Shown: positions 28,494 through 39,040, counted from the stretch's first letter. The stretch is DNA of 64,000 nucleotides from Candidatus Aminicenantota bacterium (GCA_016933515.1 JAFGAV010000025.1:1-64000); one strand, 5' to 3'. Notes: generated from the letters alone by a model not told the origin. Translations and numbers: made by a program.

Positions 28494-28616
28494 TCGCGCG
28501 CTCCGAATCCCGAGGCCGCGGGCGCCGGAACGATCCGGCGATGACGCCGGATTCCGGAGTTTCCTTTTGGACTGGAAAGACATATAGTTGAGGAAGGCGG
28601 AAAAGGAGGTTTGCCG

Positions 28617-29891
28617 ATGCTCGACCTGAAGTGGATTCTGGACAACGCGCCGGAGGCGCGCCGCCGGTTGGCGCAACGGGGAGTCGAGCTGGATACCGAA
28701 GGGTTGTCGCGGATCAACGAGGAGCGCAAGGCGTTTCAGAAGCGGGCGGAAGACCTTCGGGCCGCGCGCAACAGGGCCTCGGAAGACGTGGCCCGGGCCA
28801 AGAAAGAGGGCCGGGACGCCGCGGAGGTGATCGCCGCGATGAAAAAGGTCGGGGATGACATTTCCGCCCTGGAGGAGAACATCCGCTCCCTGGAGGCGAA
28901 GCTGCGCGCGGATCTCTTGAGCATTCCCAACCTTCCCGCTGGCAGCGTGCCCGAGGGCCGCGCCGCGGAAGACAACGTTGAGGTGAGGCGTTTCGGCGAC
29001 CCGCCCCGCTTTTCCTTCCGGCCGGAGCCCCACTGGGAGATCGGCCGCCGGCTCGGCCTTCTCGATTTCGACCGCGCGGCCAAGATCGCCGGCGCCCGAT
29101 TCGCCGTGTCCCTGTCCGAGGGCGCGAGGCTCGAACGGGCGCTCATCAGTTTCATGCTCGACATTCACACCCGGGAGTCCGGCTACACGGAAGTCCTCCC
29201 CCCTTTCATCGCCAACGAGGACAGCCTGATCGGAACGGGAAACCTCCCCAAGTTCGCCGAGGATCTTTTCAAGATCGAAGGCTTCAAATGGTACCTCATC
29301 CCTACGGCCGAGGTTCCCCTGACGAACTTGTTCCGGGATGAGATCCTTGATGAGAGCTCCCTGCCGCGCCGCTTCGCCGCCTACACGCCCTGTTTCCGCA
29401 GCGAGGCCGGTTCCTACGGCAAGGACATTCGGGGCCTGATCCGGCAGCACCAGTTCAACAAGGTGGAGATCGTGGCTTTCTCGCTTCCCGAGAAATCCTT
29501 TGAGGAGCTGGAGAGGATGACGGTTTCGGCCGAGGAGGTGTTGCGGCGATTGGAGCTCCCCTATCGCGTGGTGGAGCTGTGCGCCGGCGACCTGGGTTTC
29601 GCCAGCGCCAAGACCTACGACCTGGAGGTCTGGATGCCCGAAAGGAACGGATACGTGGAGATCTCCTCGTGCTCCAACTGCACGGATTTCCAGGCGCGCC
29701 GGGCGAACATCCGCTTCCGGAGGGCTCCGAAGTCCAAGCCGGAACACGTCCACACCCTGAACGGCTCGGGAGTGGCCGTAGGCCGCACCGTGGCCGCGCT
29801 GCTCGAATGCGGCCAGCAGAAGAACGGCACCGTCCGCATTCCCGCCGCGCTGCGGCCCTACATGGACGGATTGGAGAAGATCGGATCCTAA
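28617..29891 (+). CDS. serS: Seryl-tRNA synthetase
   Basis: [86 protein letters not shown]. Confidence 0.96.
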
Positions 29892-29998
29892 GGGGGGAAC
29901 AGGAAGGCGTTGATTGCCGAAAACGCCTTTTTATATTTTAATAGTATTAATCCCCCCAGCCCCCCTTAGGGAATTAAGGGGGGGAACAGGAAGGCGTT
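29889..29998. repeat. 23-24 bp direct repeat TAAGGGGGG(G)AACAGGAAGGCGTT
   Basis: Copies at 29889-29911 and 29975-29998 flanking an AT-rich spacer; first copy contains the serS stop codon. Confidence 0.8.
29904..29940 (+). terminator. Rho-independent terminator of serS
   Basis: AAGGCGTT...AACGCCTT stem followed by TTTTATATTTT. Confidence 0.75.
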
Positions 29999-30010
29999 TT
30001 CGGAAAGGTC

Positions 30011-30100
30011 GGAGGGATGGCCGAGTGGTTGAAGGCGGCGGTCTTGAAAACCGCTTTCCGGGCGACCGGAACGGGGGTTCGAATCCCTCTCCCTCCGCCA
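30011..30100 (+). tRNA. tRNA-Ser (anticodon TGA)
   Basis: GGAGGGATGGCCGAGTGGTTGAAGGCGGCGGTCTTGAAAACCGC...GGTTCGAATCCCTCTCCCTCCGCCA; long variable arm; encoded CCA. Confidence 0.97.
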
Positions 30101-30158
30101 TAGCGCTCATTGGAAACGGCGCGACAGAGGCGGAATTCCCATCCCCCGGCAAACATGC

Positions 30159-30164
30159 TACAAT
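30159..30164 (+). promoter_or_regulatory. Promoter -10 TACAAT (with TTCCCA -35 at 30136) for second tRNA
   Basis: 17-bp spacer; upstream of 30186. Confidence 0.45.
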
Positions 30165-30185
30165 GCCTCCCGCCGTTTCGGGCGC

Positions 30186-30279
<94 letters not shown>

Positions 30280-30350: not shown

Positions 30351-30845
30351 TCAGATCGGGCCGAGAGGCCGATTGAGGTCGATGTCCCGGGGAAGGGGGA
30401 TGATCATCGCCTCGAAGGTGTCCGATCCGGGCGAGGTCTCATAGAGGAGGCGGAGCTTGACCCGGGATTTTTTCGTGGAATAAGACATATTCCGGATGCT
30501 CGACCAGGGGACATAGCGCATCCGGTAGACAATGCCTCGGTTGCCGATGACCGCGTTCCGCCGGGGAGCCAGAGACAATCCGAAGGCCAGGAGCAAAAGC
30601 CTGCGATATCCCTCCGGACTTTCGGGTTTGAGGGCGATGAGAGCCAGGCCCCAGGCGGCCACGGCCAGCAGCAGTCCCAGAACAAGGAGATTCTCGACGA
30701 AACCGAGATGAAATATCCCGGACCAGCAGGCGTGTGCCGTCCCTGCTTTGGCCTTGAGACGCCTGAACGCCGCCATGTTCGACGCGGCCAGCGCGAAAAC
30801 GGGGAGAAAGGCAAAGAGATAAGGAGCCGGTCCCGCGGCGTTCAT
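30351..30845 (-). CDS. Small membrane protein (DUF5673-like), last gene of peptide/propeller operon
   Basis: Two or more hydrophobic segments then NRGIVYRMRYVPWSSIRNMSYS; ATGA overlap with upstream gene. Confidence 0.7.
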   Translation of the reverse strand: MNAAGPAPYLFAFLPVFALAASNMAAFRRLKAKAGTAHACWSGIFHLGFVENLLVLGLLLAVAAWGLALIALKPESPEGYRRLLLLAFGLSLAPRRNAVIGNRGIVYRMRYVPWSSIRNMSYSTKKSRVKLRLLYETSPGSDTFEAMIIPLPRDIDLNRPLGPI

Positions 30846-31318
30846 GGCCTTTTTTCCGTCTGTTTGGAGCTCCGGGGCGGGATTTTTTCCACCGATCCCG
30901 AGACCGCATCGAGCACGAGACCGGGATTCGCCGTCCCGATTCCCGCCGCCAGGAAGAGACCGCTTGTGTCCACAAGGACGGGCGCGGGGCATCCTTTGGA
31001 CTTGAGGAACATCCGCAATCTTTTGGCCGCAGCTTCCGGAGGCGCGCCGTCGGCGTCGTCGCCGGGACGCGAAGAAACGACCACCCAAACATTTTCCCGG
31101 CCGTAGCGTGCGGCGAAGCGGCGGAAATCGGCGAGGAACCGTTCGCCGCACAAAGGGCAGAAATAAAGACTCGGGTCGGCCGCCAAGACCACAATCGCCT
31201 GCCGCCCGCAAGCCGGCGCGTCCAAAGAGAGGCTCGCCGACGGCCGGGCCGCGGAAAACAGAAAAGCCAAGGCCGAGAGAACGGCGATCGCGATCACCCG
31301 ACTAACGGCGCTCATCAT
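30842..31318 (-). CDS. Secreted thioredoxin/redoxin-like protein with CPLC motif
   Basis: Signal peptide; AADPSLYFCPLCGERFLADFRRFAARYGRENVWVVV; PVLVDTSGLFLAAGI; overlaps propeller gene. Confidence 0.65.
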   Translation of the reverse strand: MMSAVSRVIAIAVLSALAFLFSAARPSASLSLDAPACGRQAIVVLAADPSLYFCPLCGERFLADFRRFAARYGRENVWVVVSSRPGDDADGAPPEAAAKRLRMFLKSKGCPAPVLVDTSGLFLAAGIGTANPGLVLDAVSGSVEKIPPRSSKQTEKRP

Positions 31319-32345
31319 CGGACTCGGGTCCCATGATCCTGTATTTTTTGAGCGTCATGCCCTGGTCGGCCCGGGCATAGAGACAGCCCCGGCCGTCGAT
31401 CATGAGGCAGTGGCTGGGCTGGGGAAGGATCAGGGTGTCAAGCAAGCGGCCGTCGGAGTCGAGCACATAGACGTCGCGGCTCCGGTGTCGGGAATACCCT
31501 CCGCCCAGAACGAACAGGCGGCCCTGCCCGTCAACGGCAATGTCCTTAAACGTCGGCGTTTCCGGAACGGTATGAAAGAGGATCTTCTTCGTCCTGATCT
31601 CGGAGACTCCCAGAAGGCTTTTGGCCCACAGGAGGCGCCCCCGCGCATCGAGTTTGAGGAGGCGGTCCAGGTAGTTGAAGACCACGTAGAGCGAGCCGTC
31701 GGCGCCGAAACGGAAATCGATCGGAGACATGGCGGGAGGATCGTCCCTGCGGCGGCAGGAGAAAATGCGTTTCAGACGTCCCGATCGGTCAATAACCCGG
31801 ATCGTTCCCGCGTCCTCTTTCCTCAGCGAGACCGTGGAGTAGGCCAGGCGGCCGTCGGGAAACGCCTGAAGGTCGTCGGCCGGGCACGGCAGGGGGATCG
31901 AGGCTTTAAAATTCAGCCCGGCGTCGAACTCCTTGATCGAGGACCGGAAAGGGTCCGAGACCACGACGAAAACACTGCCGCCCGAAACATCCACGGGGTA
32001 GCGGCGCACCCCGAACGCTCCCTTGCCGCTCAGCATCCAGGCCGCGGTTTTCATCAAACATCCGTCCGGGCCGAATTTTTTGAGGGAGGCCTCCAGAGCG
32101 TCCGTAACGTACAGACACCCCGTCCCGTCGGCGGCGACGCCGACCCACATGGACAGGAGGTCGCTTTCCCGGCCGCCGACGGACAGCACCTCCTCGAGAC
32201 GGATTGTCTTTTTGGGCTCGGCCGCCGTCTTGGCCGCGAAAAGACCGAGAACACAAACCGCCGCCGCGGCGAAGAGGGCGGGGCGCATGCGCCCCGCCCT
32301 CAGAGCCGTTCGGATCTTGAAAGGGGTCGGTGAAGAAGCGCTCAT
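31302..32345 (-). CDS. Secreted 6-bladed beta-propeller (NHL-like) protein
   Basis: Signal peptide; repeated GxLYVx(D/N)..LxxLKKFxxxG blades; ATG 32345 with AGAGGG upstream. Confidence 0.75.
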   Translation of the reverse strand: MSASSPTPFKIRTALRAGRMRPALFAAAAVCVLGLFAAKTAAEPKKTIRLEEVLSVGGRESDLLSMWVGVAADGTGCLYVTDALEASLKKFGPDGCLMKTAAWMLSGKGAFGVRRYPVDVSGGSVFVVVSDPFRSSIKEFDAGLNFKASIPLPCPADDLQAFPDGRLAYSTVSLRKEDAGTIRVIDRSGRLKRIFSCRRRDDPPAMSPIDFRFGADGSLYVVFNYLDRLLKLDARGRLLWAKSLLGVSEIRTKKILFHTVPETPTFKDIAVDGQGRLFVLGGGYSRHRSRDVYVLDSDGRLLDTLILPQPSHCLMIDGRGCLYARADQGMTLKKYRIMGPESDDERR

Positions 32346-32359
32346 GGGTCCCTCTGCGC

Positions 32360-32581
32360 TTACTGCATGTAGAGCAGGCAGAAGAGAAAGCCGATAAAGC
32401 AATAGTCGGCGTTTATGATTTTTTCCCACAAAGGCTGTTCTTTGAGGCACCGGTTGAGGGCTTCGCCGCAGTCCACTTCTTCGGCTTGCAGGCCGGAAAC
32501 GCCGCCCAGGATGAGCAAAACCGCCGCCAGAAGGAATGAACCGGCCGCGAGTTTGAGGGCCGGTGAGAATTTTTTCAGCAT
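32360..32581 (-). CDS. Small secreted Cys-rich peptide B (twin CX6C)
   Basis: MLKKFSPALKLAAGSFLLAAVLLILGGVSGLQAEEVDCGEALNRCLKEQPLWEKIINADYCFIGFLFCLLYMQ; SD AAGGAG; paralogous to peptide A. Confidence 0.75.
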   Translation of the reverse strand: MLKKFSPALKLAAGSFLLAAVLLILGGVSGLQAEEVDCGEALNRCLKEQPLWEKIINADYCFIGFLFCLLYMQ

Positions 32582-32610
32582 GCATTTTTCTCCTTTTTTT
32601 CGTTCTTTCG

Positions 32611-32856
32611 TCAGTCCAGAAGGAATTCCCTGCAGAAGGCGTAGCCTTCGAAACAAAAAGCGGCATAGGCCAGGCCCCAGAACGGGCCTCCCTCTCCGGT
32701 CAGCCCGGCGGCGTCCCCCAGGCAGCTGAGAAGGGCCGTCTCGCACGCGCCCGCCTCGGCGCTAGGAGCGAGGAAGGCCATCCCCAGCACGGCCAGCATC
32801 AAGGCCGCGGCCGCTTTCAGGACCATGTCTCTCCTTTTCGACCGAAACATTTTCAT
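32611..32856 (-). CDS. Small secreted Cys-rich peptide A (twin CX6C)
   Basis: MKMFRSKRRDMVLKAAAALMLAVLGMAFLAPSAEAGACETALLSCLGDAAGLTGEGGPFWGLAYAAFCFEGYAFCREFLLD; strong SD AAGGAGGTG; AEA-type signal cleavage. Confidence 0.78.
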   Translation of the reverse strand: MKMFRSKRRDMVLKAAAALMLAVLGMAFLAPSAEAGACETALLSCLGDAAGLTGEGGPFWGLAYAAFCFEGYAFCREFLLD

Positions 32857-33058: not shown

Positions 33059-36000
33059 ATGAAGATCTTCCGGATGGTCATCTTGGGTCTCGTGGCCGTG
33101 AGCGTGATCTCCATTCTAGGGGTAACGATGAAACAGAGCCGACAGGACAAAGAAACGCGGGCTCAGATCCAGGAGCTGTGGGAGAAGGCCGAACAGGCCC
33201 GGAAAGACGGATTGCCGCAGACCGCCGCGGGGCATTTCAAGGAGATCACGGGCCTGGCGCTCAAAATCGGGGAGAAGGGGATGGCGCTCACGGCTCTGAT
33301 CCAAAAATTGGCGATGGAGTCCGTGGTTGAAGGCAACCGGCCGGAAGAGCGCATTGTGCGCTTGAAAAAGGAGATGGCCCTTCTGCCGGCGGATCTCCTG
33401 CCCGTCATGAAGCTCGTTTTGGCCCGGTGGTACTGGCATTATTTCCAGCGCAACCGATGGCGTTTTCTGCAGCGTTCGGCGACCGAAGGCCTTGACGAAG
33501 AAGATTTCACCGCCTGGGATCTCCCTCGTCTTTTCCGGGAGATCGCCTCGCTGTATGACGATGTTCTCGAGGCGGACGCCTATCTCAAATCGAAACAGCT
33601 TTCCGAATTCGCCGACTTTTTCCAGCCTGGAAACCAGCCCCCGGCTCTCCGGCCGACGCTCTTCGATTTTGCCGCCTGGGAAGGCCTGGAGTTCTACACC
33701 TCCGCCGAGCAGGCGGCCGCCAAACCCGAAGACGCCTTCGAGATCCTGAGCGAGTCGGCGGCCCTGTCTCCCGCCGATACATTCCTGGCTTTCCGGCCGG
33801 AAACGACGGACGTCGATTCCCCGAAGCTCAAGGCGCTTTGCATTTTCCAGGCGCTCCTGGAATTTCATCGCTCCGACCTCCGTCCCGACGCGTTCCTTCA
33901 CGCCGATCTCGGTCGGCTCCGATGGGTCCGCAACGTTGCCGTCGGCGAAAACGTTTCCGAACTCTATCTGCTCCGGCTCAAGGAACTGGCGGAACGCCAT
34001 CCCGGATCGGAGATTTTCGGCGAAGCCTGCCACCTCCGGGCCAAGGAGCTTTTCGACCGGGACGAACGGGTTGCGGCCTTGGACATCGCCTCTCGCGGCG
34101 AGAAGGCCTATCCGCATTCCGTGGGCGGCCGAAATTGCCGTGTTCTCAAAGCCCGGATCCTGGCCAGGGAATTCGAGCTCCGAACCGAGTCGGTGATTCT
34201 CCCCGGGCGCGTCTCGCATCTCGTCGTGAGCTACCGGAACGTCACCCGCCTGAACATGCGCGTCGTCCGGCGTGATTTCGAGAAGCTTTTTGAGGGTGGT
34301 GGGGAGGGCCTTTCTTATTCCGGCCTTTCGGAAGACGCCTTGAAAATCCTTCTCGCCCGGGCCCCGACGGCGGAATGGACGGTCGAGCTTGCGCCGACCG
34401 AAGATTTTCGTACGCGCGAGGCCGTGATCGAGATCCCGGCGCTCGACCCCGGATATTACCAGCTGGTGGCCGGTCTCGACCCGAAGTTCTCTTTCGACGG
34501 CAACAAAATCGAAACCGCTTCTTTCTGGGCGAGCCGTTTGGGCCTCGTTCTCAACGCCCGCGACAGAGAAAGCGTTTCAGGCACCGTCGTGAACAGCGGC
34601 GGAGGTGAGCCCCGGCCCGGCGTCGAGGTGTCCCTTTGCGATTGGCAGTACAACCGGCGGGTCTACGAGGAGCGAAGCCAGGTCATAAGCGACGACGCCG
34701 GTCATTTCGAACTGATCAAGCCCGCCCGGTATGCCCAATTTCTCGTGGTCGTTCGGGACAAGGACGGAGACGCCGTCGCCTCCTCGAATATTCCCTACGG
34801 CGTCCGCCGAGAGCCCCAGGTCGGGGAGCGGACTGTTCTGTTCACCGACCGCGCCCTTTACCGTCCCGGCCAGACCATTCATTTCAAGGGCATTTGCCTG
34901 AGCCTGGACCAGGGCCAAAACATCTATCGGACGCTTCCCGGCCGGACGGTCACGGTCGGGCTCCGCGATGTGAACGGAGAAACCGTTTCCGATCTGGAGC
35001 TGAGGACCAACGACTACGGTTCTTTCAGCGGGATGTTCGTCGCGCCCGCCGACCGCCTGACGGGAGAGATGACGATCGTTTGCCGGGAGCCCGACGGTCA
35101 GGCTGTCGTGCGGGTCGAAGAATACAAGAGGCCCAAGTTTCAGGTCCAGGTCGACATCCCGGACAAGGAATTCCGGTTGGACGACGAGGTGGAGGCCGGC
35201 GGCGCGGCCGCGGCTTACACCGGCGCTCCGATCGACGATGCCCTGGTCCGCTTCCGCGTTGTCCGGGAGGTGAACGTTCCCTATTGGTGGTTCTACCGGC
35301 ACGGCGCCGGGACGTGGCGCAAAAGCCAGGAAATCGCCCACGGGACGGTCCGCACGGACGACGAAGGCAAATTTCTCATCCGGTTCCGGGCCCGGTCCGA
35401 TCCGTCCGTTCCGCGCGAATCACAGCCGGTTTTCGATTACATGGTGCGTGTGGATGTCACGGACGGCTCCGGCGAGACGCGAAGCGCCCAGGGCCGGGTA
35501 AGGATCGGGGCGGTCTCCCTGCAGGCGGGGATGGACATCGCGGAATGGCAGGAATCCGGCCGGCCGGTGGAGGTGAAAATTTCGACCGCCAACCTGAACG
35601 GCCGGCCCGCCGCCGCCGAGGGACGGGTAGAGATTTTCAGCCTCCGGGGGCCGGAGAAGCCCGTTCCCGCCGACCTCATCGGCGAGGTGGCCGTCCGCGA
35701 GCGCGAAGCCCTGGACGCCGGAGAGCCCGGATTCGCCGGGACGTCGGACTGGCGGAAATGGCCCGCCGCCACATTGGTCGACTGCAGGGATTTCCGGACA
35801 GCCGATGACGAAGACGCTTCGTCCTTTTTGAGCTTCGACCTTCCGCCGGGCGCTTATCAGGCCCGGCTCACGACCCGGGACCGGTACGGTTCGAAAGTGG
35901 AAGCTGTCGGATTCTTCATCGTCCTGGCGCCGTCGGAACGTCGCTTCGGCGTCCCCGTTCCCTTCCACGTCGTTTCCCGCTCCGACCGGGCGGAAGTCGG

Positions 36001-39000
36001 CCGGACCTACGAGCTGCTTTGGGCCACGGGATATGATCAAGGGCCTCTGCTCATCGAAGTCCTGCGGGACGGCCGCCGCCTGCAGAGATTCTGGACGGAC
36101 GGCGGACAGACTCAAGGGCGGCTGCGCGTTCCCGTGGATTCCTCGCTCAAGGGAGGATTCACGGTCGTCTGCACCCTGGTCAAGGAGAACCGTTTCTACC
36201 GGAGCGAGAACAGGGTGTCTGTCCCCTGGTCGGACAAAGCGTTGGACCTGCGATGGACGTCTTTTCGCTCCAAGCTTCTCCCCGGGCAGAAAGAGCGGTG
36301 GGCGCTCGAAATCCTGGGGCCGCAGGCCCTTCCCGCAGCGGCGGAGCTGGTGGCGGCGATGTACGACGCTTCGCTCGACCAGTTCTTTCCGCATGCTTTT
36401 TCCTCCCTGGCCGGCATCTTCGCCCGCGACCTGACCTTCGTTCACTCCCTGTACTCCAATCGAGCGCTTTCCTTTTCCTCTTACGGCCGGGGAGTGAACG
36501 ACATCCCTCCGGAGGTCCGGCCGACATATCCCGCGTTTCCGGAGGCGGTCGGCAGGGATCTGTTCGGTTTCGAGTACTACGATGCGGGATTCGCGGTGAA
36601 GGCCCCGGCCCCTCTTTCCGCCACAAGGGAAATGCTTGCCGAGGAAAAGATGGTGGCGGCTGAGGCGACGGAGGCGGAAGCCGAGGAGCCTGAACTCGCG
36701 ACCGAAGTCCCTCCCGCTCCGGATCTGACGCAGGTCCCGACCCGTCGCAACCTCGACGAAACGGCCTTTTTCTTCCCGCATCTCCTGACCGACAAGGAAG
36801 GAACGGTCTCCCTGGAATTCACCATGCCCGAGGCGCTGACCGAATGGCGCTTTCTCGGCCTGGCGCATACGCGGGATCTGGCCAGCGGCTCCCTGGAGGG
36901 GAGGACCGTCACTCAGAAAGATCTCATGGTCCAGCCTAATCCGCCGCGGTTTTTGCGCGAGGGGGACGCTCTGGAATTCACCGTCAAGGTCACGAACATG
37001 ACCGCCGAGGAAATCCGGGGAGGGGCGGCGCTCAATTTCAGCGACCCGGTTTCGGAAAAACCTCTCGACGCGGAGCTGGGCAACCTGGAGGCGCGGAAGG
37101 AATTCGCCGTTCCCCCGCAGCAGTCGCGCACTCTCGCCTGGGCGATCCGGGTTCCGGACGGCCTCCAGGTCGCGGCCTTTAAAGCCGTCGCCGCGACGGA
37201 CAGGCATTCGGACGGGGAGGAAGGCTGGCTTCCGGTTCTCAGCCGCAGGCTTTTCGTCCGGGAATCCCTTCCTCTCTGGATCAGCGGCCGCGGACGGAAA
37301 ACGTTCGTCTTCGACAAGCTGGCCCGCTCGGCCGAGTCCACGACGCTCGCCCACCACAGCCTGACCGTGCAGATGGCCTCCCATCCCGCCTGGTACGCCG
37401 TTCAGGCGCTGCCGTATCTCATGGAATTTCCCTACGAGTGCTCGGAGCAGGTTTTCAACCGTCTGTACGCCAACAGCCTGGCGCGGCACATCGCCCTCTC
37501 CGACCCGAAGATCCGCCGGGTGTTCGACCTCTGGAAAGGGACCGAGGCTCTGGACTCGAACCTGGAAAAGAACGAAGACTTGAAGGGCGTCCTTCTTCGC
37601 GAGACGCCCTGGGTGCTCGAGGCCCGGTCAGAGAGCGAGGCCCGTCGCCGCGTCGGGATGCTGTTCGACGCGAACCGGCTGGATTCGGAGATCAAATCCG
37701 CCTATGGAAAACTCGCCGACATGATGGAAGAAGGCTCCTGGCCCTGGTTCCCGGGAGGACGGTCGAACCGCTACATCAGCCTGTACATCATCACCGGTTT
37801 CGGCCGCCTGAGAAACATGGGAGTCGCATCGGCGCCCCTCGACCTGGCCCTCGCCGCCTTGGACGGCGTCGATGAGTGGATGGAGGAACGCTACCGGGAT
37901 CTCGTGCGGCGCAAGGCTCTGGAGGATGTCAATATCGACCCGACAACGGCGCTCTACCTCTACGGCCGCAGCTTCTTCCTGAAGGACAAACCCGTCCCCC
38001 CCAAAACTCGGGAGGCGGTCGCCTATTTTCTGGAACAGGCGAAAACGCATTGGCTGAAGCTCGGCTCCCGACAAAGCCAGGGACACCTTGCCCTGGGTCT
38101 GAAGCGCTTCGGTTTTCCCGAGGAGGCGGGAAAAATCATGAGGTCGATCAAAGAGCGCAGCCGGACGGACGAGGAAATGGGCCGTTCCTGGAGCGAGGGG
38201 GAGAGCGCCTGGTGGTGGTACGAGGCGCCCATTGAGACCCAGGCGCTGATGATCGAGGCGTTCGACGAGGTTATGAACGACGCCCCGGCGGTGGAGGAAT
38301 GCAAGGTCTGGCTGCTCAAACAGAAGCAGACGCAGGCCTGGAAGACGACCAAGGCCACGGCCGATGCCGTCTATGCCCTGCTTCTTCGCGGGGAAAGCCT
38401 CCTGTCCTCCGACGCCCTGGTCGAAATTCGTCTGGGCGGCCTGAAGGTCGAACCGGAAACCGTCGAGGCCGGAACGGGTTTCTACCAAAAGCGCTTCGCC
38501 GGTCCGGATGTTCGACCCGCCATGGCCGAAGTGACCCTGGACAAGACGGACCCGGGCATCGCCTGGGGCGGTCTGCATTGGCAGTATTTCGAGGACATCG
38601 GGGCGGTGACGCCCCACGTCCAGAATCCCCTCCGGCTCAAAAAGCAGGTTTTCGTCAGGCGCCTGACGAAGAAAGGCCCGGTCATCGAGCCCGTCCCGGG
38701 CGCGCTTGAGGTCGGGGACACGCTCGTCGTGCGCATCGAGCTTCGCTCCGATCGCGACCTGGAATACGTCCACATGAAGGACCACCGCGGGAGCGGGATC
38801 GAACCGGTCAATGTCCTGTCCCGCTACAAGCATCAGGACGGGTTGTGGTATTACGAATCCACCAAGGATGCGGCCACCCATTTCTTCATCGACGTTCTTC
38901 CCAAGGGGACGTACGTTTTCGAGTATTCCCAGAGGGTCGTTCACCGCGGCACGTACGAGAACGGCCTGGCCTTTGTCGAATGCATGTACGCGCCCGAGTT

Positions 39001-39040
39001 CAACAGCCATTCGGAAAGCGTTCTTCTTGAGGTGAAATGA
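33059..39040 (+). CDS. Alpha-2-macroglobulin family protein (1993 aa) with CxEQ thioester motif
   Basis: RALYRPGQTIHFKG (MG domain), EFTMPEALTEWRFLGLAHT, PYECSEQVFNRLYANSLA thioester; YAYSQR-like C-terminus (FEYSQRVVHRG). Confidence 0.93.
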   Translation: MKIFRMVILGLVAVSVISILGVTMKQSRQDKETRAQIQELWEKAEQARKDGLPQTAAGHFKEITGLALKIGEKGMALTALIQKLAMESVVEGNRPEERIVRLKKEMALLPADLLPVMKLVLARWYWHYFQRNRWRFLQRSATEGLDEEDFTAWDLPRLFREIASLYDDVLEADAYLKSKQLSEFADFFQPGNQPPALRPTLFDFAAWEGLEFYTSAEQAAAKPEDAFEILSESAALSPADTFLAFRPETTDVDSPKLKALCIFQALLEFHRSDLRPDAFLHADLGRLRWVRNVAVGENVSELYLLRLKELAERHPGSEIFGEACHLRAKELFDRDERVAALDIASRGEKAYPHSVGGRNCRVLKARILAREFELRTESVILPGRVSHLVVSYRNVTRLNMRVVRRDFEKLFEGGGEGLSYSGLSEDALKILLARAPTAEWTVELAPTEDFRTREAVIEIPALDPGYYQLVAGLDPKFSFDGNKIETASFWASRLGLVLNARDRESVSGTVVNSGGGEPRPGVEVSLCDWQYNRRVYEERSQVISDDAGHFELIKPARYAQFLVVVRDKDGDAVASSNIPYGVRREPQVGERTVLFTDRALYRPGQTIHFKGICLSLDQGQNIYRTLPGRTVTVGLRDVNGETVSDLELRTNDYGSFSGMFVAPADRLTGEMTIVCREPDGQAVVRVEEYKRPKFQVQVDIPDKEFRLDDEVEAGGAAAAYTGAPIDDALVRFRVVREVNVPYWWFYRHGAGTWRKSQEIAHGTVRTDDEGKFLIRFRARSDPSVPRESQPVFDYMVRVDVTDGSGETRSAQGRVRIGAVSLQAGMDIAEWQESGRPVEVKISTANLNGRPAAAEGRVEIFSLRGPEKPVPADLIGEVAVREREALDAGEPGFAGTSDWRKWPAATLVDCRDFRTADDEDASSFLSFDLPPGAYQARLTTRDRYGSKVEAVGFFIVLAPSERRFGVPVPFHVVSRSDRAEVGRTYELLWATGYDQGPLLIEVLRDGRRLQRFWTDGGQTQGRLRVPVDSSLKGGFTVVCTLVKENRFYRSENRVSVPWSDKALDLRWTSFRSKLLPGQKERWALEILGPQALPAAAELVAAMYDASLDQFFPHAFSSLAGIFARDLTFVHSLYSNRALSFSSYGRGVNDIPPEVRPTYPAFPEAVGRDLFGFEYYDAGFAVKAPAPLSATREMLAEEKMVAAEATEAEAEEPELATEVPPAPDLTQVPTRRNLDETAFFFPHLLTDKEGTVSLEFTMPEALTEWRFLGLAHTRDLASGSLEGRTVTQKDLMVQPNPPRFLREGDALEFTVKVTNMTAEEIRGGAALNFSDPVSEKPLDAELGNLEARKEFAVPPQQSRTLAWAIRVPDGLQVAAFKAVAATDRHSDGEEGWLPVLSRRLFVRESLPLWISGRGRKTFVFDKLARSAESTTLAHHSLTVQMASHPAWYAVQALPYLMEFPYECSEQVFNRLYANSLARHIALSDPKIRRVFDLWKGTEALDSNLEKNEDLKGVLLRETPWVLEARSESEARRRVGMLFDANRLDSEIKSAYGKLADMMEEGSWPWFPGGRSNRYISLYIITGFGRLRNMGVASAPLDLALAALDGVDEWMEERYRDLVRRKALEDVNIDPTTALYLYGRSFFLKDKPVPPKTREAVAYFLEQAKTHWLKLGSRQSQGHLALGLKRFGFPEEAGKIMRSIKERSRTDEEMGRSWSEGESAWWWYEAPIETQALMIEAFDEVMNDAPAVEECKVWLLKQKQTQAWKTTKATADAVYALLLRGESLLSSDALVEIRLGGLKVEPETVEAGTGFYQKRFAGPDVRPAMAEVTLDKTDPGIAWGGLHWQYFEDIGAVTPHVQNPLRLKKQVFVRRLTKKGPVIEPVPGALEVGDTLVVRIELRSDRDLEYVHMKDHRGSGIEPVNVLSRYKHQDGLWYYESTKDAATHFFIDVLPKGTYVFEYSQRVVHRGTYENGLAFVECMYAPEFNSHSESVLLEVK

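Follow-up and report, generated by a model that had tools for sequence, protein, structure and literature searches.

In the mauBEDA gene cluster of methylamine dehydrogenase, a propeller chain and a cystine-rich small chain are encoded together with a CxxC redoxin (MauD) and MauE. The twin-CX9C/CX3C (CHCH-type) proteins fold as antiparallel helical hairpins with two laddered cystines and have a dedicated thiol oxidase. In Bacteroidota, NVEALA (PF14055) loci encode a small exported peptide beside a PF17170-type propeller; no paper on this pairing was found in the open-access literature. MauE has been suggested to form disulfides in the beta subunit of methylamine dehydrogenase, and in Streptomyces clusters MauE, and once MauD, is paired with candidate precursors that have at least 8 cysteines (PMC7794033).

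We analyzed an operon from a 64,000-nucleotide stretch of DNA of a Candidatus Aminicenantota bacterium (GCA_016933515.1, JAFGAV010000025.1:1-64000), referred to here as the window, from a genome of 2.37 Mb in 123 contigs. The initial annotation of the window had likened this operon to the NVEALA loci. The likeness extends to the propeller family (PF17170) and to the position of a peptide gene adjoining the propeller, but not to the peptides as such, which are not PF14055 members: neither P0001, P0002, nor any of 53 family peptides matched PF14055 at E up to 1. Unlike the NVEALA peptides, the Aminicenantes peptides have no NVEALA motif, form an old tandem pair, and carry a CX6C...CX6C arrangement, and the gene order of the loci differs. 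The comparison is thin, being based on one NVEALA locus, in which the NVEALA peptide comes after a 316-aa DUF1573 protein that matches Redoxin weakly and has a CxxC, and before a propeller-like ORF that was identified by its motif RKGNGPDEF and is cut by the contig end. A CxxC redoxin-DUF1573 protein adjacent to the peptide is a further likeness to the operon described here, and at the level of architecture the analogy is fair.

Organization of the operon

The operon is made up of five packed genes on the minus strand, all of which were called as ORFs where the initial annotation had placed them; the ORF coordinates reproduce the two gaps (29 and 14 bp) and the two coding overlaps (17 and 4 bp). 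The gene pep1 (32611..32856) encodes a peptide of 81 aa that matches our mature-peptide profile A2 at E 1.2e-12 and is conserved across the order, and pep2 (32360..32581) encodes a paralogous peptide of 73 aa that matches the same profile at E 3.0e-12. Both peptides are predicted to be exported, as are the products of the next two genes, a 6-bladed beta-propeller of 347 aa (31302..32345) and a thioredoxin-like CxxC (CPLC) protein of 158 aa (30842..31318), referred to here as the redoxin. The optional fifth gene (30351..30845) encodes P0005, a membrane protein of 164 aa in which hydrophobic segments are followed by a conserved C-terminal domain. Taken singly, the five window proteins gave no Pfam or NCBIfam match above the cut-off, and the assignments to PF17170 and to the thioredoxin-like family were revealed by relatives rather than by the window proteins' own searches.

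Directly downstream of the operon, on the opposite strand, the window has a seryl-tRNA synthetase gene and then two tRNA-Ser genes with the anticodons tga and gct (28611-30279). On the other side, ~200 bp from pep1 and divergent to it, lies the gene for a bacterial alpha-2-macroglobulin of 1993 aa with A2M, MG2, and bMG10 domains (33059-39040); an alpha-2-macroglobulin homologue is likewise divergent beside the operon in a contig of the same genus (L031).

Sequence and predicted structure of the peptides

Translation of the ORFs bore out a Sec-type signal and two CX6C motifs in each of the two peptides. The cysteines of pep1 are at positions 38, 45, 68, and 75, a spacing of CX6C-22-CX6C, and the spacing in pep2 is CX6C-15-CX6C. 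Both motifs are present in all 60 peptides compared (30 pep1 and 30 pep2), and the second has Gly at its position 3 in 60/60 and F, W, or Y at its position 6 in 60/60. All of the 53 peptides that were aligned keep the pattern C-x6-C...C-x2-G-x3-C, in which C, C, C, G, and C are invariant; the full set of conserved positions is C, A(+3), C, C, G(+3), an aromatic residue, F/W, and C. Of the shared motif first described for the two window peptides, the CX6C pairs hold for the family but the W is not a family feature, and no invariant Trp pair was found among the 60 peptides.

A signal-peptidase-I-like site lies no more than 16 residues before the first Cys in 60/60 peptides, and a lipobox was found in 0/60, which predicts export of the peptides as free proteins of ~42-49 residues. 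The loop between the motifs, compared in 30 peptides of each type, is 16-44 residues long in pep1 (mostly 20-22) and 13-20 in pep2. It is hydrophobic in pep1 (median GRAVY 1.3) and mildly so in pep2 (0.31), and a [GAS]xxxG motif is present in 21/30 pep1 loops and 7/30 pep2 loops. No model for the peptides was seen in Pfam or NCBIfam, a single match to PF13488 at E 0.6 being seen among them, and searches of the open-access literature on NVEALA, twin CX6C, DUF5128, and Aminicenantes disulfide peptides returned no paper. The initial annotation, which knew of no described system with this peptide motif, appears to have been right in this respect, and the arrangement of these peptides with a propeller is apparently undescribed.

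AlphaFold2, run with an alignment of 22 sequences that all came from the window or from loci of our genome scan, predicted pep1 to be a two-helix hairpin (residues 37-56 and 58-79) with a pLDDT of about 84-91 over most of the hairpin. In this model Cys 38 and Cys 45 are on the first helix and Cys 68 and Cys 75 on the second, in register for pairing of 38 with 75 and of 45 with 68. An antiparallel hairpin of helices, its disulfides forming a ladder, is suggested both by the AlphaFold2 model and by a mirror-symmetric relative described below. The predicted structure is in this regard like that of the CHCH-type proteins; unlike these, the peptides are CX6C/CX6C and never CX9C, are bacterial and predicted to be Sec-exported, and gave no significant match in the PDB by sequence or by fold.

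Recurrence, linkage, and selection

The initial annotation had proposed a peptide HMM search to ask whether the peptides recur with the same neighbours. They do, and more than by chance: the motif and the gene order were seen again in 43 of the 95 order genomes. Profile A2 found 92 peptide genes in these 43 genomes, and the propeller profile A1 found 55 propellers in 45 of the 95 (matches with E up to 1e-40), the window propeller having strong homologues in many genomes of its order. The pair of small signal-peptide ORFs with CX6C...CX6C was found repeatedly 5' of the propeller at loci with upstream sequence remaining: 86 of the 92 peptide genes lie on the same strand as a family propeller and no more than 1.5 kb upstream of it, and the other 6 abut contig ends. 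Counted by propeller, 42 of the 55 have two peptides, 2 have one, and 11 have none; the 11 are mainly contig-edge cases or members of a separate paralogous branch (L061-L063). Most of the named operon carriers are Candidatus Aminicenantes metagenome-assembled genomes, and one genome (G428) has three copies of the operon. The operon is absent from most of one family (f7), indicating that it is dispensable or has been repeatedly lost. Outside the order, no peptide match below E 1e-3 was found among 396 genomes of the phylum; four matches at E 0.003-0.008 were taken as chance.

The two peptides of an operon are the products of an old duplication. When each peptide was compared with those of other operons, its nearest relative had the same operon position in 59/59 cases, pep2 of the window being nearest to pep2 of other operons, which indicates that pep1 and pep2 split before the families diverged and that both have been kept. 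The propeller tree recovers one large family cleanly (f2, 99/98) and the others less so. The initial annotation had held that peptide ORFs lacking purifying selection would count against its reading, and such a lack was not seen: wherever dN/dS could be estimated for a close pair it came out below 1, at about 0.05-0.62 for the peptides and 0.09-0.29 for the propellers, these being small genes with dS near saturation in some pairs. The arrangement of paired disulfide peptides with a propeller is real and old.

The linkage bears on the reading that the peptides are hairpins with a structural role in the envelope or inserted into a membrane, the propeller being an unrelated co-expressed neighbour. 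The hydrophobic pep1 loops, some of them glycine-zipper-like, and the PF13488 match are in keeping with such hairpins. Peptide-propeller linkage holds at essentially 100% over a deep order, however, despite flanking genes that vary between loci, and the propeller is again the neighbour in Ignavibacteria (below). We consider this reading rather improbable.

Several other loci were noted in the course of the searches. The paralogous propellers L061, L062, and L063 (branch support 100/99) have no peptides and have different neighbours. An Aminicenantes-type operon was found in a contig titled Clostridiales (L077, JARYMI010000064.1); its peptides equal those of a contig of the order studied here (G010:C93), and the title looks wrong. 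In the Aminicenantes genome G466, a different Cys-rich exported peptide of 75 aa is followed by a PF17170 propeller and then by a CxxC protein (L179:11509-13315, the same as L088); this contig has many tandem propeller genes, and the genome has 13 propeller matches. In Deferribacteres JdFR-76, a very Cys-rich signal-peptide ORF of 79 aa (L102:1444-1683) starts ~55 bases after a propeller ORF.

Propeller, redoxin, and membrane protein

The presence of a secreted 6-bladed propeller in the operon was upheld by its family, 14 of 15 rows of family A1 matching PF17170 with a best E of 2e-10 and a representative scoring 32 bits against a cut-off of 22.9. The window propeller (P0003) is the one row with no PF17170 match; it has lost the GxGPGEF stretch, forms a long branch in the tree, and is a diverged member of the family by its match to profile A1 (E 1.1e-116). 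We also considered the propeller as a peptidyl-glycine amidating lyase and rejected this assignment, the profile match reflecting general NHL repeats; the operon has no monooxygenase partner and the peptides have no conserved C-terminal Gly.

The thioredoxin-like protein with CPLC was likewise supported. In the AlphaFold2 model, a strand (E41-47) precedes CPLC (54-57), and the CxxC stands where the first long helix (55-72) begins. Foldseek matched the model with probability 1.0 to the Trx-like (TlpA-like) structures 2l5o and 3eyt at E about 1e-3 and weakly to SdbA (5um7), the family profile matched StoA (3erw) at E 4.9e-4, and one member of the family matches the NCBIfam StoA model. These matches describe a MauD/TlpA/StoA-like protein. 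The CxxC is invariant in the family. As to the cis-proline that would face the CxxC in a thioredoxin-like protein, alignment A5 has one Pro kept in a [FA]P motif (P113) and no conserved Pro just before the strand 133-137. Of 31 loci with peptides, 26 have a CxxC protein encoded directly 3' of the propeller, and two of the remaining five are at contig ends. This protein probably forms the disulfide bonds of the peptides. The redoxin is missing from some complete operons (L032/L072, L071, L057, and L177), indicating that it is not strictly required in cis. VKOR was not found in the genome of the window. MauE was considered as part of the Aminicenantes system and rejected, as it sits at a separate conserved locus after an aminotransferase-like gene.

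Homologues of P0005 lie directly 3' of the redoxin at L040, L049, L052, L056, L058/L079, and L176, and an HMM of these homologues matched P0005 at E 4.6e-27. In family f2 no P0005-type gene follows the redoxin, a different gene (about 450 aa) being found there. In a further explanation, the peptides are a two-peptide bacteriocin-like pair, hydrophobic and disulfide-stabilized; the redoxin would mature them, and self-protection would come from the membrane protein (in Ignavibacteria from the ABC transporter). Each operon encodes two paralogous small hydrophobic peptides, the [GAS]xxxG motif is frequent in the pep1 loops, part of the operons have the membrane protein, and the redoxin model resembles SdbA, if weakly. 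Unlike class IIb two-peptide bacteriocins, the peptides have Sec signals and no double-glycine leaders, and no bacteriocin exporter or peptidase gene was seen in the Aminicenantes operons. Their sequences are conserved and their positions kept throughout the order, whereas toxins diverge fast; the propeller is obligate and has no known bacteriocin role; P0005-type proteins are missing from many operons; and the Ignavibacteria have a single peptide. It is unlikely that the peptides are bacteriocins.

A related operon in Ignavibacteria

We examined two Ignavibacteriae contigs from the genome scan (L080 and L081) together with 201 genomes sampled from the class. At nine Ignavibacteria-class loci, a small exported peptide with the pattern C-x6-C-x3-C...C-x3-C-x6-C is encoded just upstream of a propeller, with the ends of the Cys spacing altered in L167 and small shifts in some loci. 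The operon of six-cysteine peptide, PF17170-like propeller, and redoxin is conserved in L164-L167, L171-L174, L080, and L081. The CxxC redoxin lies downstream of the propeller, and its profile matched that of the Aminicenantes redoxin with a probability of 99.1 and E 4.9e-19. The peptide profiles of the two groups matched over 39 columns with a probability of 89.7 and E 1.8e-6, this being a short match dominated by cysteines. In several loci MauE (PF07291) is fused to the redoxin or encoded by a separate upstream gene (E 4.6e-11 to 3.2e-24 in four), and most loci have an ABC ATPase and a permease-like protein. The Ignavibacterial operon is like that of Aminicenantes in its homologous redoxin, its propeller type, and its peptide, which shares the outer CX6C frame and the GY motif. 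It is unlike it in having a single peptide with an extra inner Cys pair (three predicted disulfides), in having MauE and an ABC transporter, and in lacking the Aminicenantes membrane protein. It is apparently undescribed in the open-access literature and is perhaps a fuller version of the system.

Because the extra cysteines form one inner mirror pair, the simplest interpretation gives the Ignavibacterial hairpin three ladder rungs and the Aminicenantes hairpin two. Gain or loss of such a pair between phyla fits structural disulfides and argues against the peptides being redox-active and carrying electrons or thiols from the redoxin to a further partner in the envelope, or the reverse, instead of being statically disulfide-bonded. 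Four invariant cysteines and a CxxC protein in the same operon could be taken to suggest carriers of this kind; yet the cysteines are 7 apart on helices and not in CxxC motifs, and some operons have no redoxin. We regard such a role as highly unlikely.

The combination of a propeller, a disulfide-rich small chain, a CxxC redoxin, and, in Ignavibacteria, MauE recalls the cast of the mau cluster (MauA, MauB, MauD, and MauE). By extension, the peptides might be small subunits of a propeller oxidoreductase of the methylamine dehydrogenase type, with an active group made from peptide residues and MauD/MauE-type maturation. We think this improbable. Neither the peptides nor the propellers matched the Pfam families of the light and heavy chains or a profile of the mau chains; no MauG, cytochrome, or radical-SAM enzyme that could make a cofactor was seen in the operon; the peptides do not share a Trp pair; and the propeller is of a different family, six-bladed and not seven-bladed.

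A model for a proposed peptide-propeller complex

On balance, and with moderate confidence, we favor a model in which the peptides are exported cystine hairpins that undergo oxidation by the MauD-like redoxin and serve the propeller as small subunits or ligands. The reading of the initial annotation is upheld in part: the genes for exported disulfide peptides, a 6-bladed propeller, and a thioredoxin-like protein form one conserved unit, and action of the redoxin on the peptides and their binding by the propeller are inferred. This model draws on the linkage, the invariance of the motif, the 59/59 agreement in operon position, the export signals, the hairpin model, the Ignavibacterial relative, the Trx-like fold, the dN/dS values below 1, and the parallel with MauE and MauD in the literature. 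According to the model, the operon would supply two small alpha-hairpin proteins exported via Sec, and after export their cysteines would pair C1-C4 and C2-C3, laddering the two antiparallel helices. The redoxin, acting like MauD and, in the Ignavibacterial version, with MauE, would make or correct these disulfides. The folded pep1/pep2 pair would then use the C-terminal helix that the two peptides share (C-x2-G-[YF]-x-[FW]-C) to dock on the propeller, yielding a permanent envelope complex. Its logic would be comparable to that of methylamine dehydrogenase, which has a cystine-rich small subunit and a propeller as its large subunit. The membrane protein, in those lineages that have it, would perhaps link the complex to the inner membrane.

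Several observations stand against the model: 11 related propellers have no peptides, some complete operons have no redoxin, MauE of Aminicenantes is found at an unrelated locus, and no VKOR was found in the window genome. The hydrophobicity of the pep1 loop, which is up to 44 residues long, would also fit insertion into the membrane.

PF17170 propellers and their small peptide neighbours are present in public databases without a function. The folds of the present system are known ones, and their arrangement has likenesses to the mau genes as well as to the NVEALA-propeller loci; there is a real chance that the system and its relatives make up a separate class. We suggest tentatively that cystine-hairpin peptides may be matured by their own MauD/MauE-type redox pair and serve as dedicated small subunits or ligands of PF17170 propellers, in an undescribed, cross-phylum class of envelope complex of which the NVEALA loci would be a third branch. 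For the peptides, a cystine ladder of two or three rungs offers a simple structural reading. Together, the invariant cysteines, the strict linkage to the propeller, and the MauE-bearing relative in another phylum lead to a testable proposal, that a dedicated maturation route for disulfide peptides would serve the propeller.
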